A stretch of DNA of 53,916 bases from the IMG/VR virus record IMGVR_UViG_3300035438_000711, positions 1 through 53,916 of that record. One strand, given 5' to 3'. The notes beneath the pieces are model-generated. The model ran no database searches and was not told the origin of the DNA. It was given only the letters and a program-made list of their open reading frames with translations. Position 1 is the first letter of the stretch. Each line of letters starts with the position of its first letter. Shown here in pieces: positions 277 to 50,586 of the stretch. The DNA is from a virus. The position numbers and the translations under genes were made by a program.

Positions 277-311
277 TCACTTCGGGCCAAAAAGTCCACG
301 ATGATCCGTCA
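236..311. repeat. 76-bp repeat, copy A
   Basis: Spans the 3' end of the HNH gene and the bases after it. It matches 25717-25792 almost exactly at both ends (a TATA-rich block and the codons for TDHRGLF), with a diverged 28-base middle of identical length. The coding end also matches 16617-16639. Confidence 0.85.
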
Positions 312-576
312 TGGTCTTGCGGGAGTGGCAGGAGTGGCACAAGCACTGCCCGTTTGCCACCTCGTAGCGGAGGTCGGGCCGCTCGGCTATCGGCACGATA
401 TGGTCAGCGTGGGCCTGCCGCTTCTTGCCGCACACGGTGCCGCATGACCGGCATTGGTACGCGTCCCGCAGCAGCACCTCGCGTCGCCACGCCACGTGCT
501 TGGAGTCGCAGTACCCGCGTGCCGCCGCGTTCGGTCGATAGGATGCCTGCTTGATCTTGTACGTCTTGCGTGGCAT
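277..576 (-). CDS. HNH endonuclease
   Basis: About 99 residues with the zinc-bound HNH fold: CRSC near the middle, then HADHIVPI (first His and catalytic His), an Asn in NGQCLC, and CHSCHSRKT at the end. Small HNH proteins beside the terminase genes are common in HK97-type cos phages, where they assist the terminase in cutting. Here the terminase operon follows across the circular junction. The start is uncertain: ATG at 576 is used, ATG at 585 or GTG at 603 are alternatives, none with a strong ribosome site. Its last residues, TDHRGLFGPK, are shared at the nucleotide level with two other loci (16617-16639 and 25775-25792). Confidence 0.85.
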   Translation of the reverse strand: MPRKTYKIKQASYRPNAAARGYCDSKHVAWRREVLLRDAYQCRSCGTVCGKKRQAHADHIVPIAERPDLRYEVANGQCLCHSCHSRKTMTDHRGLFGPK

Positions 577-606
577 CCGCCACATCTCAACGCGTTGCGG
601 CACGGC

Positions 607-3152: not shown

Positions 3153-3467
3153 TCAGACCGCCGGGTCCGCAGGCAGCAACGCCACCGCGTCTGCCCATGG
3201 GATCACTGCCACGTTGGGCAGCAGCACCGCCTGATCCGCTGCGGCCCACATGCCCGCCAGCAGCCCACCCGGCATGACTTCAGTGAGGATGTCGCCGCAC
3301 AGCATCAGCCGCCCATCGGTCAGAGCGCGAGGCACGGGGACGCAGTTGGGCGAGCCATGCTCCGCGTGGAGTTGTGCGAGGCGGCCAGCCAGGGCGGGCG
3401 TGAAGACCAGGGCCAGCCCCTTGGCGTCGGCGTCACTGATCGGGAGCGTGATGTCGGAAAGGGTCAT
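3153..3467 (-). CDS. Hypothetical protein after the fibre gene
   Basis: 104 residues, starting with an ATGA overlap on the stop of the fibre/lectin gene, so translationally coupled to it. Hydrophobic and Ala/Leu-rich with repeated PGG, LLPN and WADAVALL elements, but no clear membrane helix. Position suggests a fibre-assembly or small structural role; this is inference. The stop is followed by ACTGCGCTATT, a degenerate junction motif. Confidence 0.7.
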   Translation of the reverse strand: MTLSDITLPISDADAKGLALVFTPALAGRLAQLHAEHGSPNCVPVPRALTDGRLMLCGDILTEVMPGGLLAGMWAAADQAVLLPNVAVIPWADAVALLPADPAV

Positions 3468-5146
3468 TTTCTGCCCAGCGCTCTAACGAGCGTATCCCAG
3501 ATGTTGTAATAGGCGAGCGACTCAGACTCAGAGAGATTGTCGCCGATCGTGTAGCCGCCTAGTCGTGCGTTTGAGTGGGAGGAGAAGGTGCCGCCCCCTT
3601 GAGCCTCAGCAAAGACAGAGATTCCCGTTGTTACGGTTCCAGAGTTACGGCCAACTCCAGCAATGCCAGACAATGTTCCGTTTGTGTAGCAAACGGCGGC
3701 TCCCCCCGTTTCAGCCTGCGCCCCTAACACAAAATCGCCAGCCGCGTGTACAGAAGTGCCACCAGAGCCTCCCGCACCAGACGCTTCGTTGTAGGCCGCT
3801 AGGGCATAATTTGTAACGGGGTTTACATTTGTCAGACGAAACAAACCTGAAAAGCCTGTGGCTCCAGTGCCGCCAAGGTAGGCGCGGAACGTAGCCGTTG
3901 GCAGCGTATGCACGAAGCAACCAATGTGCCTCGCACTAGAGAAGTTCAGCGGCAGACCTGTCCGCAGCCTCTTGGTGCTGCCGTTTCCGATCAGCCCGCT
4001 CGTTGCAACGTAGTCGCCGCTCACGAAGTTGTCGTTGGTGTCGGTGGCGTTGCCGTACTGCGTGCCGCCTGACGATGGCCCGCGATACAAGGGAACGAGC
4101 GCCGCCGAAAGGTTCTCGCCTGCCATCGGGTTCGCTCGCCACAAGAGCGACCGCAGGCCCGCCGATTCGATTGAGTTGCAGAACGTGTTGACCGCCGCAG
4201 CCGTCGCGGTGCTCACGGTGCCGCCGTTGCCGTAGACGCTGTCGATCCAGAGTTTTGCTTCGGCATTCGTAACGGCCGAGAAGGCGGGGTCGCTGCTTGC
4301 GCGGTCGCGGAACAGTGCGGTCTGGAACGCCTGCATGGCCGCATCGTATGCAGAAATGTCACTGGAGTTGAGCCCGGCACCAATAGAATATCCCGCGAGC
4401 GTTTGGTTGCTAAACAGGTTTGCAGTGTAGGCGTTTGCACCCGTACTCTGGTCATTGCGGGCAAACACGGCAAATGGTATCGACGTTCCTGAAACAGACG
4501 CGCTCGCCGCATTGGCGGCCGAAAGCGTAGTCCTGCGGAACGACACGAGATCAGTGTCGTTTGTGCGTGTTACACCTAAAAGCGAGTCATGCGTACCCGG
4601 CACGGCAACACTGCCCGTAGTGCCTCCCAGAACATTTCCGCCAGCGCCAAATTCCCATGTGTTTCCGAGTGCCGTAGACCTCGCGCTCAGGAGTACTCCG
4701 CTGCTTGTGCTGGTGCGTTTGTAGACAGACAGATGCGAGCGCACGTTGCCGCCAGTGATCCACGCAGACGATTGCAAGCCGGTTTGCAAATACTTGCTGC
4801 TGCCGTTACCGACCAGCCCGCCACTCGCCCCCGTCTCAACGTAGTCACCAGCCACGAAGTTGACGTTCGTATCCGTCGTGTTCCCGAACTGCGTCCCGCC
4901 CAGCGACGGCCCTCTGAACAGCGGCACCAGTGCGGCCGAAAGGCCCGTGCCACAGACCAAGTTGAGGCGGTAGAAGCGGTCGCGGATGCCCGCCGTCACA
5001 ATCGACTTGCAGAAGGTATCGACAGCCTTCATCGTCGTGGCTGAGACGGTGCCGCCGTTGGCAACCACGCGGGCCTGCCAATCGCGGGCGTCTAGGCCGT
5101 AGCCGCTGGATGCTCGCGGGCGAAGCAGTCTCGGACTCATTGCCAT
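3464..5146 (-). CDS. Two-repeat lectin-like fibre/adhesin protein
   Basis: 560 residues from ATG at 5146 (second ATG at 5140). It is a tandem duplication: a helical segment (KAVDTFCKSIVTAGIRDRFY) followed by LSAALVPLFRGPSLGGTQFG near residue 60 returns in the second half as FCNSIESAGLRSLLWR and LSAALVPLYRGPSSGGTQYG. Each is followed by a Gly/Ser-rich, strand-rich domain of about 200 residues typical of concanavalin/LamG-like lectin folds. Such proteins occur as phage fibres or host-contact proteins. It lies next to membrane and lysis-type genes, away from the tail operon, which is usual for accessory adhesins. Function is inferred. Confidence 0.75.
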   Translation of the reverse strand: MAMSPRLLRPRASSGYGLDARDWQARVVANGGTVSATTMKAVDTFCKSIVTAGIRDRFYRLNLVCGTGLSAALVPLFRGPSLGGTQFGNTTDTNVNFVAGDYVETGASGGLVGNGSSKYLQTGLQSSAWITGGNVRSHLSVYKRTSTSSGVLLSARSTALGNTWEFGAGGNVLGGTTGSVAVPGTHDSLLGVTRTNDTDLVSFRRTTLSAANAASASVSGTSIPFAVFARNDQSTGANAYTANLFSNQTLAGYSIGAGLNSSDISAYDAAMQAFQTALFRDRASSDPAFSAVTNAEAKLWIDSVYGNGGTVSTATAAAVNTFCNSIESAGLRSLLWRANPMAGENLSAALVPLYRGPSSGGTQYGNATDTNDNFVSGDYVATSGLIGNGSTKRLRTGLPLNFSSARHIGCFVHTLPTATFRAYLGGTGATGFSGLFRLTNVNPVTNYALAAYNEASGAGGSGGTSVHAAGDFVLGAQAETGGAAVCYTNGTLSGIAGVGRNSGTVTTGISVFAEAQGGGTFSSHSNARLGGYTIGDNLSESESLAYYNIWDTLVRALGRK

Positions 5147-5180
5147 GTGAATTGCGCTCTTGGGGTGATATAGCGTCGCG

Positions 5181-5471
5181 CTAGTTTTGTGCGTCTGTCC
5201 TAGCAGGCCGTGCAAGTACCTGCTGGATTTCACGCTGGCCCTTGGCGAGTTCCTGCAAAGTCTCGGACTGCTGCTCCATGGTGTGCTGCGTTGACTCCAG
5301 AAACTCGACGTGACTCTTGACCACCGGCTCGACAACGCTGCTGTGGATCGCAATGGCCGCTTCGCGTCCGCAGTAGAGCAACACAGCCAGTAGCACGACC
5401 GGAACGCCGAACCGTTCAGCGATCCGCAAAAGGGTGTCGATGGTGCCCTGCTTCAGTTCGTCAGTTGTCAT
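5181..5471 (-). CDS. Single-pass membrane protein with coiled coil
   Basis: 96 residues. One membrane helix at about residues 23-41 (GVPVVLLAVLLYCGREAAIA), then a charged, Gln/Glu-rich helix (residues 55-85) that looks like a coiled coil. ATGA overlap with the preceding membrane protein gene. Topology and place fit a holin, antiholin or i-spanin-like component, but no family is certain. Confidence 0.75.
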   Translation of the reverse strand: MTTDELKQGTIDTLLRIAERFGVPVVLLAVLLYCGREAAIAIHSSVVEPVVKSHVEFLESTQHTMEQQSETLQELAKGQREIQQVLARPARTDAQN

Positions 5472-5827
5472 CGCGTCAACTCCAGTTGCATCGTAAGCAA
5501 GAAGACCCGGTTACTTGCACGCTCCATCCACCAATCAAGCAGGATTTTGATGATCGCACTGACCATGATTTGCAGGATGAATGCCCAGATGAATCCGTAT
5601 TCCTTCGGCTCCTTGCCGCTGACCAGTTGGTGCCCACGCTTCACTGACGACTCGATGCCAAGGCATACGATCCGCCGCTGCTCCTCGGTCAATGCGTACT
5701 TGAGGTAATCCCCCTGCCAGTTCTCGACCGTCAACTGCACGAGGTCGTCGAGCGTGCCGCGTCCGATAACGTGCTTCCCTAGCGGACAACGCTTCCAGCA
5801 ATACTGCTGCAGTTCGGAAAGGTTCAT
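5468..5827 (-). CDS. Membrane protein of unknown function
   Basis: 119 residues. A soluble N-terminal half contains CWKRCPLG and ENWQGDYLKYALTEEQ; one strong membrane helix lies near residues 80-102 (GFIWAFILQIMVSAIIKILL), followed by a short tail. ATGA coupling to genes on both sides puts it in the lysis-type cassette with the lipoprotein and papain-like peptidase. It may be a holin; not provable from sequence. Confidence 0.75.
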   Translation of the reverse strand: MNLSELQQYCWKRCPLGKHVIGRGTLDDLVQLTVENWQGDYLKYALTEEQRRIVCLGIESSVKRGHQLVSGKEPKEYGFIWAFILQIMVSAIIKILLDWWMERASNRVFLLTMQLELTR

Positions 5828-6096
5828 TGCTTGCACCGCCCATCGGTGCAAGCCCTGCCGGTGCCTTTGCAAACGGGGCACACCGTAACGATGCGTCCAT
5901 CTCCGAGCCTGCCCGTGCCGTCGCAGTTGGAACACTTGTCGGACTTCGGAGCGGGTGCCATCTCCTGCCGTAACTTCACGACCATGCGTGCCGTCTCGCA
6001 CGCAAGGTCGGCGGTGATGTCGGGGCGGTCTTGCTGCACGGTGCAACTCTGTGCGGTGAGCAGGAACACGCCGGTTATGAGAGCAGCGGATTTCAC
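5824..6096 (-). CDS. Lipoprotein with DnaJ-type zinc-finger repeats
   Basis: 90 residues from a GTG at 6096 that overlaps the previous stop as GTGA. The N-terminus is a short lipoprotein signal: Lys, a hydrophobic run (AALITGVFLLT) and AQSC with the lipidated Cys at 18. The C-terminal third has CSNCDGTG and CPVCKGTG, two CxxCxGxG motifs as in the DnaJ zinc domain. A small outer-membrane lipoprotein beside membrane genes could act as an o-spanin-like factor, but the zinc motifs are unusual for one. Confidence 0.75.
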   Translation of the reverse strand: MKSAALITGVFLLTAQSCTVQQDRPDITADLACETARMVVKLRQEMAPAPKSDKCSNCDGTGRLGDGRIVTVCPVCKGTGRACTDGRCKQ

Positions 6097-7004
6097 AGCA
6101 CGCCTCCCGTCCAATCGGACAGCACGCGGGGCGGGAACCCGGCGTAGCCAGACAAGGCAAACGTGTCGTCGCCTTGGATCATGCGGGTGAAGTCTTTCGC
6201 CTTCACCCAGCCTGCCGACCGCTGGAACTGTGGCGGCAGATTCGTATCGTACGTTCCCGAGTAGCAGTCGCCCCAACTGTTCACGACGAGGATCGCTGGC
6301 TCTGGATTCCACCGCACCCCAGCGGCCATCTGGCAATGTGCCCAGCCGCCCATCGGCGTCATGTAGCCGTCCCGCAGCGTCATGGAAAATCCCATTCCAG
6401 AACACACCGCAATCGGGTAGCCGTTCTGGATCGCCTTGGCTGCCTCTTCAAAATTCCGCACCAACGTCACCGACGAAACCTTGTGCCGCGCCGCCGCTGC
6501 TTCAAGGGAATCGGGCACGCCGTCGCGTCCCCATTCCTTCTCACGGCTCCCGCTGTTGTCGTTGAACGTCTGCCCGCCGTAGTCGATGCCGTAGTGCAAC
6601 GTGCCGTACTTCGTCACGGCCTTCGCTGCCGCGCCGCCGTATGATCCGTCGCCGCCGAGGTTCCTGCCGCCGCGAACTTCCACACGGGAAAATCCGTAGA
6701 CGCTCGCCTCCAAAACCCGCCCGCCATAACTCTCGCTCTCGTTCCGCAGCAGCACATCGCACGCGGCGAGAATGTCGCAAGACAAACTCCACCCCCACCC
6801 CACGCACGAGCCTATTTTTTGGGCACCACGCTTCCAATCGGGGGCAACCCTGAGCAAATACTGCCCAAGGAATACGTCCTTCGATTCGTCAAGCACCAAG
6901 TCTGGCCCGGCCTGTGCCAGCGTAGGCCGGGGCAGCGTTGCAAGGAACGCGTCGGTGCCATCGCGGTCGGGCGTGTAGCCCATCAGAGGAATGAAGTCGG
7001 CCAC
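6093..7004 (-). CDS. Papain-like (C1) cysteine peptidase
   Basis: 303 residues with the ordered C1 catalytic set: oxyanion Gln62 and Cys67 in QKIGSCVGWGWS, His223 in GGWAHCQMA, and Asn242 in ILVVNSWG. No propeptide inhibitor domain or signal peptide is obvious. Flanked by small membrane proteins and a lipoprotein, where phages normally keep an endolysin; no amidase, lysozyme or other murein hydrolase is recognisable in the genome. It may attack a protein component of the host envelope, or process phage proteins. The fold call is strong, the lysis role is inference. Confidence 0.85.
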   Translation of the reverse strand: MADFIPLMGYTPDRDGTDAFLATLPRPTLAQAGPDLVLDESKDVFLGQYLLRVAPDWKRGAQKIGSCVGWGWSLSCDILAACDVLLRNESESYGGRVLEASVYGFSRVEVRGGRNLGGDGSYGGAAAKAVTKYGTLHYGIDYGGQTFNDNSGSREKEWGRDGVPDSLEAAAARHKVSSVTLVRNFEEAAKAIQNGYPIAVCSGMGFSMTLRDGYMTPMGGWAHCQMAAGVRWNPEPAILVVNSWGDCYSGTYDTNLPPQFQRSAGWVKAKDFTRMIQGDDTFALSGYAGFPPRVLSDWTGGVL

Positions 7005-7007
7005 GGG

Positions 7008-7481
7008 CTACCCTCCGTTGCCGATGCCAGCCCATGCAATCGCACGGCAAGCGTCCGCGTATTGCTTCCGCAAGTCCGTTGTCACGGGCACCACCTCGAT
7101 GCCGACAACACCAGCCATCGCTTTCTCAACCGCCTCACGCAGCCCCACATACTTGCCCGGTTGGTTGCCAGCCAGACGCCGCCACGCAATGTCGAGCGAC
7201 AGCACGGTGAAGCCTCGCAGGCTCCGCGTGTCGGTGAACACCACCTCGGTGCCCTCCGGTGCCGCCACGACAATCGCCGCCCGCTCCCAGACCGCAGCCC
7301 ACACGGCACGGTCAACTTCGCTGGCTGGCCTCAAGGCTGCGGCAACGTCGGCTACTTTTGTTTTCATCTGCTCACTCGGGGCGTCAACTGAAAAGCCGGG
7401 GACGGCACGCGGCACCGACGGCACGCCGAACGCGGCCACGTAGCCAAGCACCGCCGCAATCGTGAGACGCTGCCAGTTCAT
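7008..7481 (-). CDS. Exported or membrane-anchored hypothetical protein
   Basis: 157 residues. N-terminal hydrophobic segment (residues 6-25, LTIAAVLGYVAAFGVPSVPR) works as signal anchor or signal peptide; the rest is soluble, Ala/Val-rich, with TRSLRGFTVLSLDIAWRRL near the middle. ATGA overlap with the preceding membrane protein gene and four bases before the peptidase gene. Its place suggests a periplasmic partner in lysis or envelope contact. Confidence 0.7.
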   Translation of the reverse strand: MNWQRLTIAAVLGYVAAFGVPSVPRAVPGFSVDAPSEQMKTKVADVAAALRPASEVDRAVWAAVWERAAIVVAAPEGTEVVFTDTRSLRGFTVLSLDIAWRRLAGNQPGKYVGLREAVEKAMAGVVGIEVVPVTTDLRKQYADACRAIAWAGIGNGG

Positions 7482-7756
7482 TTCTTTGCCTTCGCGTTGC
7501 CAAGCATCACGTCGATCAACTGCTGGCACAGGGCCACGCCTTCAGTGCACCCCGCAGCCTTCAGCCGCGTGGCAAGGTCAAGCACGATGTGCAAATCCTT
7601 GCCGGTCACGGCTGCGGTCTTTTCACCTGCGGTTTCCACCGCACGGTTTTTCCACGCGGCTTTGACTTTTGCAGCCAAGGCGGCAATCGCGGGGCCAGCG
7701 ACGACACCCACTGCCGCCACAAGGGCGACGACACGTATGATGGCATCGGTGTTCAC
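7478..7756 (-). CDS. Small membrane protein
   Basis: 92 residues from GTG at 7756 overlapping the previous stop as GTGA. One N-terminal membrane helix (about residues 6-29, IIRVVALVAAVGVVAGPAIA), then a basic helical domain ending NAKAKK. Holin-like in size and topology, and within the lysis-type cluster; no family signature seen. Confidence 0.7.
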   Translation of the reverse strand: MNTDAIIRVVALVAAVGVVAGPAIAALAAKVKAAWKNRAVETAGEKTAAVTGKDLHIVLDLATRLKAAGCTEGVALCQQLIDVMLGNAKAKK

Positions 7757-8058
7757 TTTGCCCCCTCGGCTTGCATGAGGCACCACCGCACAAGCGACTC
7801 GCCCTGCGGTGTCTTGAAGATGTCGGCAAGCAGCCGCACCAACTGGTCGTCAGCCTGTGTGTTGGTCTTCGATGCCAGCCACTCGGCGGCATCGCTCACG
7901 ACAAGACCCTTTTTGTATGGGTCGATCTCGTTCACGAATCGCTGGCCGTAGCCGATCAGCGGCGACCATGCCTGCAGCAACGCAATCTGCTGCCAGATAG
8001 AAAGCGACGCCCCGTACTTGGCGTACTCGTCTGCCGTGCCTTGGTAGTTTGGTGCCAT
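7753..8058 (-). CDS. Hypothetical protein
   Basis: 101 residues, mainly helical, soluble, with several Trp and Tyr residues (YAKYGASLSIWQQIALLQAW). ATG at 8058 has GGAGACAACT before it. No motif recognised. It heads the operon of membrane and peptidase genes. Confidence 0.7.
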   Translation of the reverse strand: MAPNYQGTADEYAKYGASLSIWQQIALLQAWSPLIGYGQRFVNEIDPYKKGLVVSDAAEWLASKTNTQADDQLVRLLADIFKTPQGESLVRWCLMQAEGAK

Positions 8059-8111: not shown

Positions 8112-8468
8112 CTAATCTCTAAAGCCCTCGAATATTTCGCGGGCCTCCGGGGAGAGGCTGATTTCCGGCATCCGGTATGGCTGCGGCTTGATGCCCTGAC
8201 GCCGCAGTTCCGTTTCTTCGTCCCAGCCAGCACGCACCTCGGCCGCGCGGGCTATCAGTTCGGCGGGCGTCGGGTCTTTTGTTTCGCCACGCTGCGGTCG
8301 GAAGCGGAGCCGCCGGTCGTGTCGCGGCGGCAAGTCGGCGACTGTCTTCAGGCGAATCAACTGGTCTTTCGTGATTGTCCAATGCGTGCAGATGTAGTGC
8401 ATCGACAGGTGCGATGCCCACTGAACCCGCAACGTCTTGAAGTCAATCGCCGCCGTGTTACCCGCCAC
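8112..8468 (-). CDS. Putative helix-turn-helix DNA-binding protein
   Basis: 118 residues. Residues 10-55 (about a Trp, YICTHWTITKDQLIRLKTVA and then DLPPRHDRR) look like a short helix-turn-helix followed by a basic arm, as in phage GcrA-like regulators. The C-terminal half is helical and charged. It overlaps the end of the glycosyltransferase gene by 11 bases. Regulation of the lysis/adhesin cassette is possible but unproven. Confidence 0.6.
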   Translation of the reverse strand: MAGNTAAIDFKTLRVQWASHLSMHYICTHWTITKDQLIRLKTVADLPPRHDRRLRFRPQRGETKDPTPAELIARAAEVRAGWDEETELRRQGIKPQPYRMPEISLSPEAREIFEGFRD

Positions 8469-11355: not shown

Positions 11356-11655
11356 CTAGCGGTAGCGAATCACCGCGTAGTAGCGGCGAGTGACCGGCGA
11401 GTAGGCGATGCCCTCCTCGATGATCGTCTTCCGCCCGAAGTAGCAGCACGCGCGGCGGGCTGCTTCGGGCGTGCTGCCCATACCGATACCCTCCGTCTGG
11501 CTGCACTGGCTGTGAACCAGTGAGCCACGGCGGGCAATGATCGTCGCGTGATCCTGTGCAGTAATCACCGAACCGCCGCGACGAACGACAACCGTGCCAT
11601 CAGCCACGGCAAGCGTGGCAACCGAAGCAATCAGCAGAGCAAAAGCAAAACGCAT
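11356..11655 (-). CDS. Small secreted protein
   Basis: 99 residues. Clear signal peptide (MRFAFALLIASVATLAVADG, cleavage probably after Ala18). The mature part carries three to four cysteines (CSQTEG, ACCYFG) and an Arg-rich C-terminus (TRRYYAVIRYR). AAGGAGG gives a strong ribosome site. Function unknown; an envelope or superinfection role is possible. Confidence 0.8.
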   Translation of the reverse strand: MRFAFALLIASVATLAVADGTVVVRRGGSVITAQDHATIIARRGSLVHSQCSQTEGIGMGSTPEAARRACCYFGRKTIIEEGIAYSPVTRRYYAVIRYR

Positions 11656-11693: not shown

Positions 11694-12803
11694 CTACTCA
11701 AGAGGCATCACCAGCCCCATGTGGCAATCAGTTCGCATGATGAACGCACCGCCGCTGCCGTGCGTCACGACGCTGACGGTCGGCTCGCCGTCGGCGGGCA
11801 ACCCGGCCAGCCACTCGCTGACGTAGGCCGGATCGAGTTTGACCGTACACTCCGCACCAAACTCCACCAGCGGGCACGAAACCTCCGACTGCCCCGCCTC
11901 CGAACTCTGCCCCCGCAGCAGCACGGCCCCGTCGGTGAACGTGAACACCACGCCGCGGCTCGAATCGCTGGTGCAAATCGCAGCGGCACGCGTTGCCCCC
12001 AGCAAGTCGTCAATCGTCACGGTCGTCGGGTCGGCCCCGCCTTCCGGCACGACGTTCCTCCAGTTCGGGAACTTGCCACCCAGCAGCCGGGCGGTCACGG
12101 TCATGCGACCGATGGACGCCACGACCTCATTGTTCGTCGCCTCCATCTGCACCGAGCCTTCGTCGCCGCACATGGCCGCGATCCTCGCCATAGCCTTGAT
12201 GGCCCGCACCGGAACCAGCGTCAGCGAATCGTCCACGGCGAAGTCGTGCTCGATCTCCGCGGTGGAAAGACGCCGCCCGTCCGTACCCACGAACGTCACG
12301 GTGTCTTCGTGAACGTCGATCAGCACGCCGCCCATAGCGAACCGGCTGCTCGTATCGTCCGCCGCAGACACGACGGAGTTGACCGCACGCACGAACTGGT
12401 CGGCAGGGATGCGGGGCAGGGGCTTTGCCCCGGTCACGTCCCACGCCGGATACGCCGCCACGTCTTCGGTCGGCAGCGTCCACGTCCCCGCACCAGCCGC
12501 AACGGTGCAGGAAGTATCCCGCCCGGTAAACGTCACGTTCGTAGACCCCGCCGCGTTCAAGATCGCCATGAGCCGCGCGTGCGGCACAAGCATCGGTGCC
12601 GCGTTGAAGCCATCCAGCGGTGCCGTCACGCGAAGGTCGCCATCGCACGTCGTCACGAACCCGCCGCCGATCAGTGCATTGAACAGCACCGCGTTCGGCG
12701 TCCGCGTTGGCACCGCGTCCTTGACCAACTGCAAGGCCGCTTTGACTTCACCGGCGTTCAATGTTGTGCCAGTAATCTTTTGAGTCTTTGTAGCCGCTGA
12801 CAT
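11694..12803 (-). CDS. dnaN: DNA polymerase III beta sliding clamp homologue
   Basis: 369 residues, the usual length of a bacterial beta clamp with its three repeated domains. Recognisable elements: ATFTGRDTSC-like first-domain strand (TNVTFTGRDTSCTV), RIPADQFVRAVNSVVSAADDTSSRFAMGGVLID at the second-domain start, FVGTDGRRLS, GKFPNWRNVVPE, and a C-terminal MPLE where beta clamps end MPMRL. ATG at 12803 is preceded by AAAGGA. A phage clamp may recruit host polymerase or the phage nucleases. No DNA polymerase other than the prim-pol protein is seen. Confidence 0.93.
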   Translation of the reverse strand: MSAATKTQKITGTTLNAGEVKAALQLVKDAVPTRTPNAVLFNALIGGGFVTTCDGDLRVTAPLDGFNAAPMLVPHARLMAILNAAGSTNVTFTGRDTSCTVAAGAGTWTLPTEDVAAYPAWDVTGAKPLPRIPADQFVRAVNSVVSAADDTSSRFAMGGVLIDVHEDTVTFVGTDGRRLSTAEIEHDFAVDDSLTLVPVRAIKAMARIAAMCGDEGSVQMEATNNEVVASIGRMTVTARLLGGKFPNWRNVVPEGGADPTTVTIDDLLGATRAAAICTSDSSRGVVFTFTDGAVLLRGQSSEAGQSEVSCPLVEFGAECTVKLDPAYVSEWLAGLPADGEPTVSVVTHGSGGAFIMRTDCHMGLVMPLE

Positions 12804-12912
12804 TCTTCGCTTCCTTTCGAGAGAACGACATACCCACCGCGATGCCAAGCAGGAACCATCCTGTTTGAAACACCGCACCAAGACAGACGCATACCACTTG
12901 TTCGATTGTCAT
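12748..12912 (-). CDS. Small membrane ORF overlapping the clamp gene
   Basis: 54 residues: MTIEQVVCVCLGAVFQTGWF and onward, with one membrane helix at about residues 6-29 and a charged C-terminal tail. Its ATG overlaps the previous stop as ATGA, like most real genes here, and the frame runs 56 bases into the clamp gene. Size and coupling support a real small protein; function unknown. Confidence 0.55.
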   Translation of the reverse strand: MTIEQVVCVCLGAVFQTGWFLLGIAVGMSFSRKEAKNVSGYKDSKDYWHNIERR

Positions 12913-31942: not shown

Positions 31943-32460
31943 GCTTTTCGGGCGTTTGAAATCGCTCTCCTCACAAGCACCCTACCGGCAACGTCAAGGA
32001 ACGGCAGTTTTCGCTTCGTCGCTTCCTCGCGCAGCCAGCCCACGATCTCGTCTAGGTGGGCCTCGCACCAGCCGGGTTCGCGGGCTTCCTCAATATCCAT
32101 GCGTTTCGCGCGGGCGTTACAGGAACAGTTGGGCGTGGCGACGATGCCGATACGCTTCAGGAGTTTCTTGAGTTCCGCGCCGGGGCCGTGGGTTGGTGCT
32201 GGCGGCTTTGCCTGTGTCTGCGCCATTGCCATTGCCCTTGCCCTTGCCCTTGCCTGCGGCTTTGCCTGTGGCTGCGGCATTGCCCTTGCCTGCGGCTTCA
32301 CAAATCCCGGCTTTGGCACTCTCGGGTAGGCCGGGTGGTCAACGTCTACGGTGATCGTGTCTCCGTTTACGCTGACGATGCAGTCCCGAACTTCGTCCAA
32401 CGCGTAGCCGCGTTGGTAGCAGCGACTCGTAAAATCATTTATGCGGCCGGTAATAGTCAT
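31927..32460 (-). CDS. Low-complexity linker protein with conserved C-terminal domain
   Basis: 177 residues, ATGA-coupled to the Cys-rich protein. Residues 1-50 are a small strand-helix domain; 52-90 are repeats built of Ala, Gln, Arg, Pro and Lys (QARARARAMAMAQTQAKP); residues 95-177 hold CSCNARAKRMD, WCEAHLDEIVGWLREEATKR and GRVLVRRAISNARK. The C-terminal domain recurs, in my recollection, in phage glycosyltransferase-containing proteins, but its role is unknown. Cys and His positions may bind metal. Confidence 0.65.
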   Translation of the reverse strand: MTITGRINDFTSRCYQRGYALDEVRDCIVSVNGDTITVDVDHPAYPRVPKPGFVKPQARAMPQPQAKPQARARARAMAMAQTQAKPPAPTHGPGAELKKLLKRIGIVATPNCSCNARAKRMDIEEAREPGWCEAHLDEIVGWLREEATKRKLPFLDVAGRVLVRRAISNARKAWLSR

Positions 32461-33566
32461 GGGAAAGTGTTCGGGCAACAGGCAGAAAGATAGTAAACAA
32501 CGCTACCGCCAACTGGCTGCCCAGTGATGATGTGTTTGGTGCAATTGTTGAAACCCATGGAATCCTTGGCTTCTTGTGCATCGGCCTCATTGCAGAAAAT
32601 GTCGTAGTCTATGCAGAATTCGGTTTCCGGATCGCACTCGCTGCAAATGTCTGCTGGCACACACTGAGATGGGAAAAAATTATCTAACGTCCCGCCGTTC
32701 CCCAAGTGCATGCCTAAATCATAGACGCAAAAGCACCCTGGTGCGCAATCCTCGTCGCTGTCGCACGGAGAGTACCTTGGCTCATTCGGCAGATGGCTGT
32801 TGTTGAAGCATCCAACATAAGGCGCGGGTTTGCAGTTGCCGCAGTTGTCGCACTCGCACCCTTCGGGACACGGGTTCTCGCCGTCACAAGGGCCGGAGCA
32901 TGGCGACGAGACGCACTCCCCATCCACACACTCGCAGCCTTCGGGGCACGGGTTCTCCTCGTCGCAGGGGCCGCAGCAAATCTGCTCGCAAGTCTGGCCG
33001 GAATAAAACGTGCCGCCAAGAGCATCGCACGCCGCCTGCGTGGAGTTAGCCACGCAATATCCCGGAACAGGAGCCCCGATGACATCACCCTCGCACGTTC
33101 CTATAGGAACATCGCCGGAGATGACGCAGAAACGTTCGCCTAAAACATTTTCCTCACAACTTTGCCCTAGTTCTTCTGGGCATCCATCAGCACCAAACGA
33201 GCCGGGAGCGCACGGTCCTGCGATTACTCTGCAAGGTTCTTTTGGAGGGACGCAGCACGCTCCAGTCTCTTGCACGCACTCACCATCCACGCACTCGCAG
33301 CCTTCGGGGCACGGGGTTTCGCCGTCGCACGGGCCGGAGCAAGAATCAGAACTGCTCGATGAACTGCTGCCCGACGAATCAGAACTGCTCGACGAACTAG
33401 AACTGCTCGACGAACTAGAACTGCTCGACGAACTAGAACTGCTCGACGAACTAGAACTGCTCGACGAACTAGAACTGCTCGACGAACTAGAACAACAGCA
33501 GTTGCGATTCATAGCAACTGAGCCGTCTTCAAAAAGCAGTTTCCCGTCTAGGAAATAAATGCTCAT
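32457..33566 (-). CDS. Cys-rich surface protein with poly-serine stalk
   Basis: 369 residues. After a short start (MSIYFLDGKLLFEDGSVAMN) comes RNCCC and a run of about 60 residues that is nearly all Ser. Then repeats of the form CSGPCDGENPCPEGCECVDG (four related copies, residues about 80-250) resemble small disulfide knots, followed by a further Cys-rich C-terminus. An 18-bp tandem repeat (33382-33489) encodes part of the Ser run. Such proteins would need oxidising conditions and suit a tail-tip or surface role; Ser may carry glycans added by the adjacent glycosyltransferases. Function is inferred. Confidence 0.75.
   Translation of the reverse strand: MSIYFLDGKLLFEDGSVAMNRNCCCSSSSSSSSSSSSSSSSSSSSSSSSSSSSSSSSSSSSSDSSGSSSSSSSDSCSGPCDGETPCPEGCECVDGECVQETGACCVPPKEPCRVIAGPCAPGSFGADGCPEELGQSCEENVLGERFCVISGDVPIGTCEGDVIGAPVPGYCVANSTQAACDALGGTFYSGQTCEQICCGPCDEENPCPEGCECVDGECVSSPCSGPCDGENPCPEGCECDNCGNCKPAPYVGCFNNSHLPNEPRYSPCDSDEDCAPGCFCVYDLGMHLGNGGTLDNFFPSQCVPADICSECDPETEFCIDYDIFCNEADAQEAKDSMGFNNCTKHIITGQPVGGSVVYYLSACCPNTFP
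33382..33489. repeat. Six perfect 18-bp tandem repeats in the poly-Ser region
   Basis: Unit GAACTGCTCGACGAACTA on the plus strand, six copies end to end, with degenerate copies on both sides. Minus-strand reading gives six Ser per unit using mixed AGT, TCG, AGC and TCT codons. Copy-number change would keep the frame. Confidence 0.95.
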
Positions 33567-47088: not shown

Positions 47089-48982
47089 CGGACTTCTTTC
47101 TGCGGCTCCGCTTTTTTGCTTCCGGTGCTGGCTTGTCGGTGATCGTCTGCGGCGAGTCATCGACCCAAACGTCCACGTTGATCCCAGCGGCCTCGGCCGC
47201 ATCGGCCTTGAGCATGTCGCCGCCGACGAGCAGCACCTGCGAGAACGCTGACGCGTAATCGCCAAGCGCCTCCGTGACCGTCTGGCGATCCTCCTCCGGT
47301 CGCCGCGAAATCATCACAACTGTGTTTCCCTCCGCAGCCGACTTGCGGGCAAACTCGCCCCACATCTGCGGATCAGCAGCGAACGTGCGGTCGAAGTCAA
47401 TGCTGACCGTCATCGCACGCGGCTCGGGCAGCGACCGGCCAAACGGTGCGGCGGGCGCGGGCGCGGGCGTTGGCAGCGGCGTGGCGTCGGTCGCCACGCC
47501 AGCCAGGATCGCCGTCACCTGCGCGGGCGATATGCTTGGGAACGACGCGGCGATAAGCGCCGCCGCACCGTCCTTGGTCAGCAGGCCAGCGGGCACCTGT
47601 GACAGAATCGCAATCAGCCCCGTAATCTGTGCCCCGTTCAGCGACACGTCCGCAACTTGTGGTGCCTCAGGCTGCGCCGGTTCGGCTGGCACCGGCGTGG
47701 CCGGTGCTGGCTCCTCCGCTGCCGCTGCCGTGCCACCGGCGACCGCCTGTCCGTCGATCCCGCTGCCGGGTTGCTGCTGGGCCAGCACGTCGCCCTCGGA
47801 GGGCGGGGCACCAAGCGTGCCCATGTTGAGCGGCCGGTAGCGAACGTCGCCGCCCTCGACGGGGTTGCGGTTTTCAAGTTCCAAGATGTCGTTTGTCGAA
47901 AGCGCCCCCACGTCCCACATCGCCCGGTAGTAAGCCGACCGCGATGCCGAGTCGCCGCGAAGCAAACCGCGCACGTCGAACTCAACTTGGTAGCGGTCGT
48001 CGTCTTCAATCAAGTCACGCATAAACGCAGACTCGAAACGTCGCAGCCACGGCAGGATCGTGTGCTGCACGAAGTCCAAACCCGCGTGTTCAATCGAGCC
48101 GTAGCCGCCGTTCATCACACCAAGCAAGTGCATCGGCACGCGGAACAATCTGGCAATCTCAGCCAACTGGTAGGTTCGCGCCTCAAGAAATTGCGCATCG
48201 GTGTTGCTTGATTGCGGAATGTCATAAGGCCGCAGCCCGCCCGTGAGGACTGCGGTGTTGTGCGAGTTGCCGACGCCGCCGTGGCGTCGATCCCACTGCG
48301 ACCGCAACTGCTCGCGGGCCTCGGCGTTCAACTGCCCGTCGGTAGACAGCACGAAGCCGGGGCGGGCACCGGCGGCAAAAAACCTCGCCCCGTGCAACTC
48401 GCACGCGCGGGCCAACGCAATCGCGTCTTTGCACTCAGTCACCAGCGAGATGCCATGCACGCCGTCGTCGGACGGGCCGCGAACGTGCAGGATTTGCTCT
48501 TCGGAATAAACCGTTTCCGAGCCGCGTTCCTCGCGGTACTTGTATCGCAGCCGCCCGTTCTCGATCCGCTCCACAGTCATGCGGCTCGGGTGCAACGGCA
48601 CGATCTGGTCAACGGCACCGGACGGGCCTGACTTCAGTTCGCTAAAAGCATCGCCCCACAAGGCAACGTGAAAAACGGCCTGCTCCCGCCACTCGAACGA
48701 AGTCTGCCAAGCGTTCGGCTGCTGGTGCAGTTTTCGGTACAGCGGCAGTTCGCGGGCCTCGCGTTTGCCCCCGGTCTTCACCCGCTCAAGAACGTGGAGC
48801 GGCAGGCTGGCAACCGTCTCGCTCAAAATCCTCAAACACGCAAACACGGCAGTGACTTGCGTGGCGTTGGTCGCGTCGATGCGGACGCCAGCGGCGTTGC
48901 GGGAACTGCCGCCGCCGTCCTCGTCCCACATTCGTTCTTCGCCGGGGAGCCAGAGGATTCTGTTTTCGTTTTGGGCGATCAT
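47075..48982 (-). CDS. Portal protein fused to a HAD-like domain
   Basis: 635 residues. Residues 1-400 are a HK97 portal: TQVTAVFACLRILSETVASL, WREQAVFHVALWGDAFSEL, LAEIARLFRVPMHLLGVMNG and YGSIEHAGLDFVQHTILPW. An Ala/Pro-rich linker (about 405-520) leads to a HAD-like fold: SIDFDRT (Asp529, Asp531, Thr533), VVMISRRP (motif II Ser) and VDVWVDDSP (motif IV acidic pair). An ATG at residue 524 could also give the HAD part alone. ATGA-coupled to the terminase. The fusion is unusual. Confidence 0.9.
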   Translation of the reverse strand: MIAQNENRILWLPGEERMWDEDGGGSSRNAAGVRIDATNATQVTAVFACLRILSETVASLPLHVLERVKTGGKREARELPLYRKLHQQPNAWQTSFEWREQAVFHVALWGDAFSELKSGPSGAVDQIVPLHPSRMTVERIENGRLRYKYREERGSETVYSEEQILHVRGPSDDGVHGISLVTECKDAIALARACELHGARFFAAGARPGFVLSTDGQLNAEAREQLRSQWDRRHGGVGNSHNTAVLTGGLRPYDIPQSSNTDAQFLEARTYQLAEIARLFRVPMHLLGVMNGGYGSIEHAGLDFVQHTILPWLRRFESAFMRDLIEDDDRYQVEFDVRGLLRGDSASRSAYYRAMWDVGALSTNDILELENRNPVEGGDVRYRPLNMGTLGAPPSEGDVLAQQQPGSGIDGQAVAGGTAAAAEEPAPATPVPAEPAQPEAPQVADVSLNGAQITGLIAILSQVPAGLLTKDGAAALIAASFPSISPAQVTAILAGVATDATPLPTPAPAPAAPFGRSLPEPRAMTVSIDFDRTFAADPQMWGEFARKSAAEGNTVVMISRRPEEDRQTVTEALGDYASAFSQVLLVGGDMLKADAAEAAGINVDVWVDDSPQTITDKPAPEAKKRSRRKKSDGEV

Positions 48983-50586
48983 ATGAAAAAGATTTCGGGG
49001 GTGTCGTCTGGCTTGTGTTCGCTACCGATCCAACTGCCGATGCTCTGGCACAGTGCCACGATGCCGTCGATACGCTCCGTTGATTTCGCCTTGCTTGGGA
49101 AAATGTTTCCGTACCTGTCTTCGTGAACGGCCGCGTTGCCAGCACACCACGAAAGCACCGGATGCCCGGCGTGGCGAATCTTGGAATTGGCTATCAAGTT
49201 CTCCAGAGCCTTGGCAGGCGCGCTCATGGCGCGACCGCCCTGCGGGTATCCTTTCACGTCTACCCCGTCCCCTTGCAGCATATTGGCGATCATTTGCCCG
49301 TTGAATTTCAAATCGACCACCAACTGCCGCACGCTGTACTGCTCACAAATCGCGGTTATGTCGCGGTGCAGCACGGTGTAGTCGGTCACGTTCCCGTCGG
49401 TCGTGCGGAGGTGCCCGTCGCGTATCCAATCCAGATACGGCACCTTGTCCCGCTGGCTCCGCTCGACCGCGTTGGATTCTGGAATCCAGAAGAACGGCAG
49501 CACGTCAATGCTCCCGTCCTCGGGATCGGGGCACACCAGCACCAGTGCGGTCAAGTCGTAGGTCGTCGCAAGATCAAGGCCCGCGTACACAGGCCGGTCG
49601 CCGAACTCGCGGAGCGGCACCGACCCCTGCTGCCACGTTTCCGGCGACAGCCACCGCACGTCGGAAGAAGTCCAAGTGTTAAGCCGGTAGCGGAGGAAAG
49701 AATTGAGTTTCGTCGGCGACTGCTCGGCCTCCTTCGCGTCATGGGCAAAGTCGTCGGGCTTGATCGTCACGCCCCACGAAGGGTTCGCCTGCGGCCATGT
49801 GTCGGGGTCTTTCCAATCGGCGTCGGCTTCCATTTCGTGGATGCAGGAGAAGAACGTCGGGTCGTGTTTCCAGTTCGCCGCAACCGCCTTCGCGTACTGG
49901 TATTGCTCGTAGCAGATACCCTTGCGGTCGTAGCCCGCAGTCGTTATCGAAACGAGGAGCGGTTGTTCTCGGGCCGCACCGCCGTACCTTAATGCGTCCC
50001 ATAATTTTCTGTCTTTTTGAGCGTGCAGTTCGTCGAACAAAAGCCCGTGAATATTGAGTCCTTCGGCTCGAAAAGCGTCAGCAGACAGCACGCGATAGAA
50101 CGACGCTTCTTTGCGGTATGCAATCGTGCGGCGGGAATCAACAACCTCCAGCACGCGGGACAACTGCGGCGAGGCCCGCACCATGCTTGCCGCCTCGCGG
50201 TAAACCACCGATGCCTGCTCACGGTCAGCAGCCGCCCCGTACACTTCGCAGCCGTTTTCGCCGTCCATGACCAGCAAATAGAGGCCGATGCCCGCCAGCA
50301 GCGTGGACTTGCCCTGCTTCTTTGCCGTCGAGATGTACGCCACGCGGAACCGCCGCGTGTCGTCGGACAGCCGCTTCCAGCCGAACAACTCACCGATCAT
50401 CACCGCTTGCCACTCAAGCAGCGTGAACGGCTGGCCCGCGTGTTTTCCTTTGGAGTGCCGCAGCCACTCTTCAAAGAATCCGATAGCGTGCTTCGCCGCG
50501 TCGGGGTCGAAGTAGTAATCAAGCCCCGCTAGGGCGGCGTCGCTTCGCAGCGTAGGCGGCAACCGGGTCTGTATCTGCGTTTCCAT
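48979..50586 (-). CDS. terL: Terminase large subunit
   Basis: 535 residues, HK97 (Terminase_1) type. ATPase: AYISTAKKQGKSTLLAGIG (Walker A about 86-96), LLFDELHAQ (Walker B Asp185, Glu186). Nuclease: YAGLDLATTYDLTALVLVCP (first Asp), VVDLKFNGQMIANMLQGDGV and later AVHEDRYGNIFPSKAKS. The start overlaps the small subunit by 68 bases; a later start is possible since the ATG has no good ribosome site. Packages DNA into proheads. Confidence 0.95.
   Translation of the reverse strand: METQIQTRLPPTLRSDAALAGLDYYFDPDAAKHAIGFFEEWLRHSKGKHAGQPFTLLEWQAVMIGELFGWKRLSDDTRRFRVAYISTAKKQGKSTLLAGIGLYLLVMDGENGCEVYGAAADREQASVVYREAASMVRASPQLSRVLEVVDSRRTIAYRKEASFYRVLSADAFRAEGLNIHGLLFDELHAQKDRKLWDALRYGGAAREQPLLVSITTAGYDRKGICYEQYQYAKAVAANWKHDPTFFSCIHEMEADADWKDPDTWPQANPSWGVTIKPDDFAHDAKEAEQSPTKLNSFLRYRLNTWTSSDVRWLSPETWQQGSVPLREFGDRPVYAGLDLATTYDLTALVLVCPDPEDGSIDVLPFFWIPESNAVERSQRDKVPYLDWIRDGHLRTTDGNVTDYTVLHRDITAICEQYSVRQLVVDLKFNGQMIANMLQGDGVDVKGYPQGGRAMSAPAKALENLIANSKIRHAGHPVLSWCAGNAAVHEDRYGNIFPSKAKSTERIDGIVALCQSIGSWIGSEHKPDDTPEIFFI

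Follow-up and report, generated by a model that had tools for sequence, protein, structure and literature searches.

A divergent papain-type peptidase in the endolysin position of a candidate lysis cassette in phages of likely Planctomycetota hosts

Phage lysis of bacteria is commonly understood as the enzymatic destruction of murein, and lambda-type phages place their holin, endolysin and spanins at a position corresponding to that of the locus described here. Peptidases with a papain-like architecture are familiar in this setting, as the CHAP and NlpC/P60 endolysins belong to the papain-like superfamily. The Methanothermobacter phages psiM2 and psiM100 encode PeiP and PeiW, pseudomurein endoisopeptidases of family C71 (Cys-His-Asp).

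The locus analysed here encodes a cysteine peptidase, PEP, whose surrounding cassette resembles the lambda-type cassette in three ways: its position between the replication genes and the HNH and terminase genes, its overlapping small transmembrane (TM) proteins and lipoprotein, and an enzyme that occurs in soluble and TM-anchored forms. It differs from the lambda-type arrangement in that the enzyme is a C1-type peptidase, no murein hydrolase is recognised, and trypsin-like and thioredoxin companions appear in relatives. With the CHAP and NlpC/P60 endolysins PEP shares the broad papain-like fold and, presumably, a lysis role; unlike them, it possesses the complete cathepsin-type Gln/Cys/His/Asn set together with an NSWG motif. 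PeiP and PeiW are also cysteine peptidases of viruses whose hosts have a non-standard wall, but differ in that family and catalytic set, in their pseudomurein substrate and in their archaeal host.

The window, namely the whole stretch of DNA that was analysed, is the entire virus record IMGVR_UViG_3300035438_000711 (53,916 b). It contains a direct terminal repeat of 127 bp, and the genome is therefore essentially complete. All main genes of the phage lie on the minus strand. Read along transcription on the circular map, the terminase, portal, S78 protease, HK97 capsid and tail genes are followed by DNA-modification/glycosyltransferase genes, replication genes, the series A-B-C-D-PEP-E-F-G-H, an HNH endonuclease gene and the terminase again (Table 1). 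Between 27.7 and 53.8 kb the window gives matches to Tet_JBP oxygenase and to the TET-associated glycosyltransferase (TAGT), with further glycosyltransferases at 8.4-11.3 kb, a combination that probably reflects DNA base hypermodification. The phage also encodes a DNA polymerase III beta sliding clamp (11694-12881), as do several relatives, and a tail-region protein (32457-33566) in which a CCC motif close to the N terminus is followed by a very long stretch of serines.

Table 1. Features of the candidate lysis cassette and of the genes that follow it, in window coordinates.
Feature	Position	Strand	Description	Support or occurrence
A	8112..8468	-	soluble, 118 aa, conserved; heads the cassette	matched in 76 loci
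B	7753..8058	-	soluble, 101 aa, conserved; anchor in the synteny test	84 loci (blastp)
C	7478..7756	-	92 aa, single N-terminal TM; holin-like by size and topology only	hydropathy, alignment
D	7008..7481	-	157 aa, secreted or membrane-anchored	90 loci (blastp)
PEP	6093..7004	-	cysteine peptidase, 303 aa, papain-fold (C1-type) by residues and predicted fold	Gln62, Cys67, His223, Asn242
E	5824..6096	-	small, lipoprotein-like; DnaJ-type CxxCxGTG...CPxCxGTG motifs	92 loci (blastp)
F	5468..5827	-	~119 aa, single C-terminal TM	82 loci (blastp)
G	5181..5471	-	96 aa, N-terminal TM, then likely coiled coil; i-spanin-like/holin-like by topology	
H	3464..5353	-	large, with a domain of phrog_17104 (function unknown) in repeat; follows G in the transcription unit	
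HNH	277..603	-	HNH endonuclease, between cassette and terminase	
TerL	48979..50586	-	terminase large subunit; opens the packaging/head module, which on the circular map lies downstream of the cassette	

The PEP ORF has a GTG start, taken as residue 1 in the numbering used here, and a GGAG-like ribosome site. The original prediction had credited this ORF with a complete C1 catalytic set. The four residues, the last of them within NSWG, do occupy the positions claimed and are intact in full-length relatives: they are invariant in 36 close relatives, in 20 diverse sequences and in a 40-sequence alignment, and unchanged in aligned relatives down to 24% identity. An automatic motif test was passed by 160 of 169 distinct PEP-homologous ORFs, and one more (L011) was intact on inspection, giving 161 full-length sequences; the remaining eight are short contig-edge fragments or broken frames. 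At one locus (L077) the peptidase gene is broken across several frames, through either assembly error or decay. Synonymous changes greatly exceed non-synonymous ones, with dN/dS-type ratios of ~0.03-0.17, and PEP is under purifying selection.

An AF2 model of PEP computed from 40 sequences (pLDDT 91.3, pTM 0.91) replaced an earlier model made from close sequences only (pLDDT 63). When the PDB was searched by fold with this model, the top 50 matches were all C1-type, the best being xylellain (3ois, E 8.6e-10), and cathepsins also matched. The low dN/dS-type ratios and this fold match to C1 exclude a chance origin of the ORF. Of the PDB searches, only that by fold gave meaningful matches. Single-protein sequence searches with PEP matched no Pfam, PHROG or PDB family, and sequence-profile searches of the PDB with two PEP alignments returned nothing meaningful. 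Pfam Peptidase_C1 was left unmatched by 20 PEP members even at E 10, Peptidase_C39_2 was touched weakly by two of 20 (best E 0.03), and the CHAP and NlpC/P60 Pfam domains are absent from PEP. The catalytic residues nevertheless follow the C1 order Gln, Cys, His, Asn, and the modelled fold is that of papain. By residues and predicted fold, PEP is a divergent C1-type peptidase; the missing Peptidase_C1 match reflects a divergent subfamily and contradicts neither. Set beside MEROPS C1 (papain, cathepsin B/L, xylellain 3ois), PEP has in common the papain fold, the Gln/Cys/His/Asn order and the GSC and NSWG motifs, but it is ~13% identical, has no recognised propeptide and is phage-encoded in a lysis-like cassette.

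The genes flanking PEP encode small membrane proteins and a lipoprotein, as originally described: C, F and G each have one TM segment and are holin candidates by hydropathy, D is secreted or anchored, and E carries a lipobox. From B to G the genes overlap by a few bases or are nearly in contact, and E begins at the PEP stop. Protein A matches no Pfam or PHROG family. The phage form of PEP has neither a signal peptide nor a TM segment by hydropathy. G and E fit the topology of a two-component spanin (inner-membrane TM/coiled coil plus outer-membrane lipoprotein), with the lipobox Cys of E absent in a few relatives. H is probably not part of lysis. Elsewhere, a small secreted protein (window 11356-11655) is kept in four of six near-complete relatives and occupies the region where other relatives have a secreted trypsin-like gene. 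The designation of this site as an endolysin position is well supported: a conserved cassette of overlapping genes precedes HNH and terminase, and no murein hydrolase was recognised in this genome or, for the five families searched, in ~30 relatives. Position and topology suggest that the cassette causes lysis, and topology points to possible holin and spanin roles for C, F, G and E.

Scans of IMG/VR for PEP returned 39 contigs at first and then more than 100, nearly all with the same cassette. With gene B as bait, PEP was found ~0.6-1.0 kb downstream in 74 of 75 loci, the exception being a contig edge. A scan starting from a distant B gave 68 loci, among which 61 had PEP, three at contig edges did not, and four had a third papain-like gene; these two sets overlap in part, and their counts are not independent. 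Two replacement types were distinguished in the slot. The first, a C1 type of ~331 aa that is 24-31% identical to the window PEP and has all four catalytic residues, occurs in L391, L393, L399, L402, L409, L438 and L444. The second, of ~300 aa, occupies the slot of L410, L412, L418 and L419 and reads as papain-like from its motifs (NQGxGxxRPGTHECTCHS and GRNGHAV). No murein hydrolase was seen in the PEP slot among the loci scanned via gene B, nor was any sister phage with a classical endolysin in the slot seen via terminase or gene B relatives. In relative G002, PEP is 83% identical to that of the window, against 48% for the terminase and 60% for the capsid. Two genomes without PEP that were read whole (G048, G049) share with the window mainly the terminase, the portal and a few head-tail genes. 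Protein searches with PEP, capsid, B and G found no cultured phage relatives, and the terminase gave thousands of matches at <60% that are uninformative on the host.

The original prediction also held that no murein hydrolase is recognised in the genome. Pfam and profile searches across all ORFs of the window agree, finding no known family; conducted with profiles and not folds, they exclude known families, not unrecognised ones. In 30-33 related records the Amidase_2, Phage_lysozyme, SLT and Amidase_3 profiles gave nothing above cut-off and the M23 profile reached only 12 bits, well under its cut-off, in two records; as positive controls, the murein-hydrolase profiles gave matches in control genomes. 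Six near-complete relatives showed, in their other ORFs, no murein hydrolase among the 25 of 34 matched families listed, outside which a weak match could be hidden, and a 37-kb temperate phage described below has no recognised one. An ordinary endolysin elsewhere in the genome is unsupported by Pfam on the window, the six relatives and the 37-kb phage and by the five profiles on the 30-33 records.

In several relatives PEP is accompanied, within the cassette or near it, by trypsin-like or thioredoxin domains. The E homologue of L418 (2793-3632) also contains a trypsin domain (Trypsin_2, E 5e-22), and the same fusion of a CxxCxG lipoprotein-like segment to a trypsin-like serine protease occurs in L412 (11829-12689) and L410 (11838-12698). 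Many other relatives have a free-standing gene for a secreted trypsin-like protein, 4-9 kb upstream of PEP (for example L098:3792-4571 in G002). A secreted thioredoxin follows PEP in the L444 cassette and stands between PEP and terminase in L462-L464, and in L470 the lipoprotein adjoining PEP weakly matches the thioredoxin set (E 1.6e-5). In the window itself neither trypsin nor thioredoxin gave a match. Another phage of the set (G022) encodes in its tail region a 1192-aa protein with RCC1-like propeller repeats (L113:6833-10411).

Across GTDB, gene B has a sole match, in a Phycisphaerales MAG, where a 10-kb contig carries B, C, D, a type-2 PEP and F in order. A GTDB scan with a close PEP profile gave no match; a joint PEP profile matched 13 of 392 Planctomycetota genomes (E 1e-137 to 1e-13), several of the contigs being 5-8 Mb long. 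In three loci of Planctomycetota genomes (L462, L463, L472) the PEP homologue adjoins TerL. Such homologues beside terminases in Planctomycetota chromosomes point to Planctomycetota hosts, and the host of the window phage is likely a member of this phylum, an assignment made from MAG binning and homologues with the distant PEP profile run within Planctomycetota only. Many chromosomal homologues are anchored by an N-terminal TM segment, and holin-like proteins or lipoproteins are often encoded next to them; these holin-like proteins match no Pfam or PHROGs holin family. The contrast between the soluble phage PEP and the TM-anchored chromosomal forms parallels that between soluble and signal-anchor endolysins. 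One Planctomycetota genome includes a separate contig of 37,010 b (G374:C2) with portal, capsid, tape measure, integrase and terminase genes; this contig (loci L472, L476, L477) is a complete temperate phage in which PEP closely precedes the HNH and terminase genes. What is new here is that differing slots are still filled by a protease-like gene, that in relatives secreted trypsin-like and thioredoxin genes lie in or near the cassette, and that homologues stand beside terminases in Planctomycetota chromosomes.

The planctomycete envelope has been described as SDS-resistant, cysteine-rich protein held together by disulfides (PMC3035269; PMC2754498), and Planctomycetes have also been found to possess DAP-containing peptidoglycan sacculi that lysozyme destroys (PMC4432640). 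A text search of the report on a 21.9-kb chronic planctomycete phage gave no mention of endolysin or peptidase (PMC10945688).

Taking these observations together, we hold with moderate confidence that PEP is the endolysin-slot enzyme of a lysis cassette, B-C-D-PEP-E-F-G, in Planctomycetota phages and that it digests envelope protein; a role in lysis, all substrates taken together, is quite probable. PEP would be made late and, lacking a signal peptide, would be cytoplasmic until a holin, presumably one of the small one-TM proteins C, F and G, passes it through the inner membrane. There it would digest a disulfide-stabilised protein sacculus or wall-anchored envelope proteins, while E, as a lipoprotein, and G, with its TM segment and likely coiled coil, may act on the outer side in a spanin-like manner. 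In relatives, the secreted trypsin-like protease and thioredoxin would cut and reduce the same protein layer, and the pairing of protease with thioredoxin fits a layer stabilised by disulfides. A papain-type protease in the wall-enzyme slot, often with a second protease or disulfide-breaker nearby, suggests that the host is burst by an attack on protein, which may replace an attack on peptidoglycan or add to it. By position, PEP would work like an endolysin; its status as one would depend on its substrate, for which we infer envelope protein in preference to murein peptides. A broader proposal is offered only tentatively: lysis by Planctomycetota phages may have evolved to consist of proteolysis and disulfide reduction (a papain-type protease, joined in some phages by a trypsin-type one and thioredoxin) and not of murein hydrolysis, because on that reading the load-bearing barrier in the hosts is a layer of cystine-linked protein.

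The lysozyme-sensitive peptidoglycan of Planctomycetes makes possible either a C1 enzyme that cuts murein peptides or an unrecognised hydrolase beside PEP. In the former case PEP would be an endolysin cleaving the stem peptides or cross-bridges of murein, as CHAP and NlpC/P60 endolysins do, from the same lysis position. Among the proteins that resemble it structurally in BFVD are some from phages that contain a C1-like domain and bear the annotations 'N acetylmuramidase' and 'Peptidoglycan binding-like', and these proteins, together with the lysozyme-sensitive sacculi (PMC4432640), split the substrate assignment between protein and murein peptides. We nonetheless regard a murein endopeptidase as doubtful: the active site is the cathepsin-type Gln-Cys-His-Asn set with NSWG, the closest matches among solved structures are proteinases such as xylellain and cathepsins, PEP has no peptidoglycan-binding domain, and the trypsin-like and thioredoxin-like companions in relatives are inactive on murein.

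In the latter case the true murein hydrolase would have escaped recognition, whether as D or as a domain of a tail or tape-measure protein, and PEP would be an accessory that strips an outer protein layer or aids disruption of the outer membrane. D is exported or anchored, has a conserved soluble domain of ~130 aa assigned to no known fold or function, and accompanies PEP in 90 loci; the profile-based exclusion could pass over such a protein. This arrangement is improbable given that no murein hydrolase family was found in the window, the six near-complete relatives or the 37-kb temperate phage, and that PEP is the gene always kept, its identity in G002 standing well above those of terminase and capsid.

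Prohead maturation in phages uses proteases, and a virion-borne or head-maturation protease serving assembly or DNA entry is therefore conceivable, but for PEP it is highly improbable: an S78 prohead protease already lies beside the capsid gene, on which ground a head-maturation identity was rejected, and PEP lies outside the structural modules, in a run of overlapping genes for small membrane proteins and a lipoprotein, and has homologues with N-terminal TM anchors. An intracellular accessory protease for host takeover or counter-defence would suit the phage form, which lacks both signal peptide and TM segment, but has almost no probability in view of the near-universal fixed position, the refilling of the slot by other papain-like types, the exported partners and the membrane-anchored forms in Planctomycetota genomes.

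The preferred reading of PEP as a lysis enzyme acting on envelope protein bears on a further part of the original prediction, that protein is the key barrier of the host envelope. That claim is supported in part and indirectly: the replacement of PEP by other papain-like types, the trypsin and thioredoxin partners of relatives and the likely Planctomycetota host favour it, and a possible murein-peptide target or unrecognised hydrolase weakens it.

A large uncultured phage group that always fills this slot with a papain-type peptidase, and in no case with a recognised murein hydrolase, would depart from the common understanding of phage lysis. Such phages would serve as a natural probe of what holds the planctomycete cell together. 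Comparing a single enzyme with its Cys67 mutant would make testable the dispute over a protein sacculus versus peptidoglycan in planctomycetes, which dates from the 1980s, and the temperate phage G374:C2 is a candidate inducible test system. These enzymes may also provide lysis tools for Planctomycetes, a group for which few phages are known.
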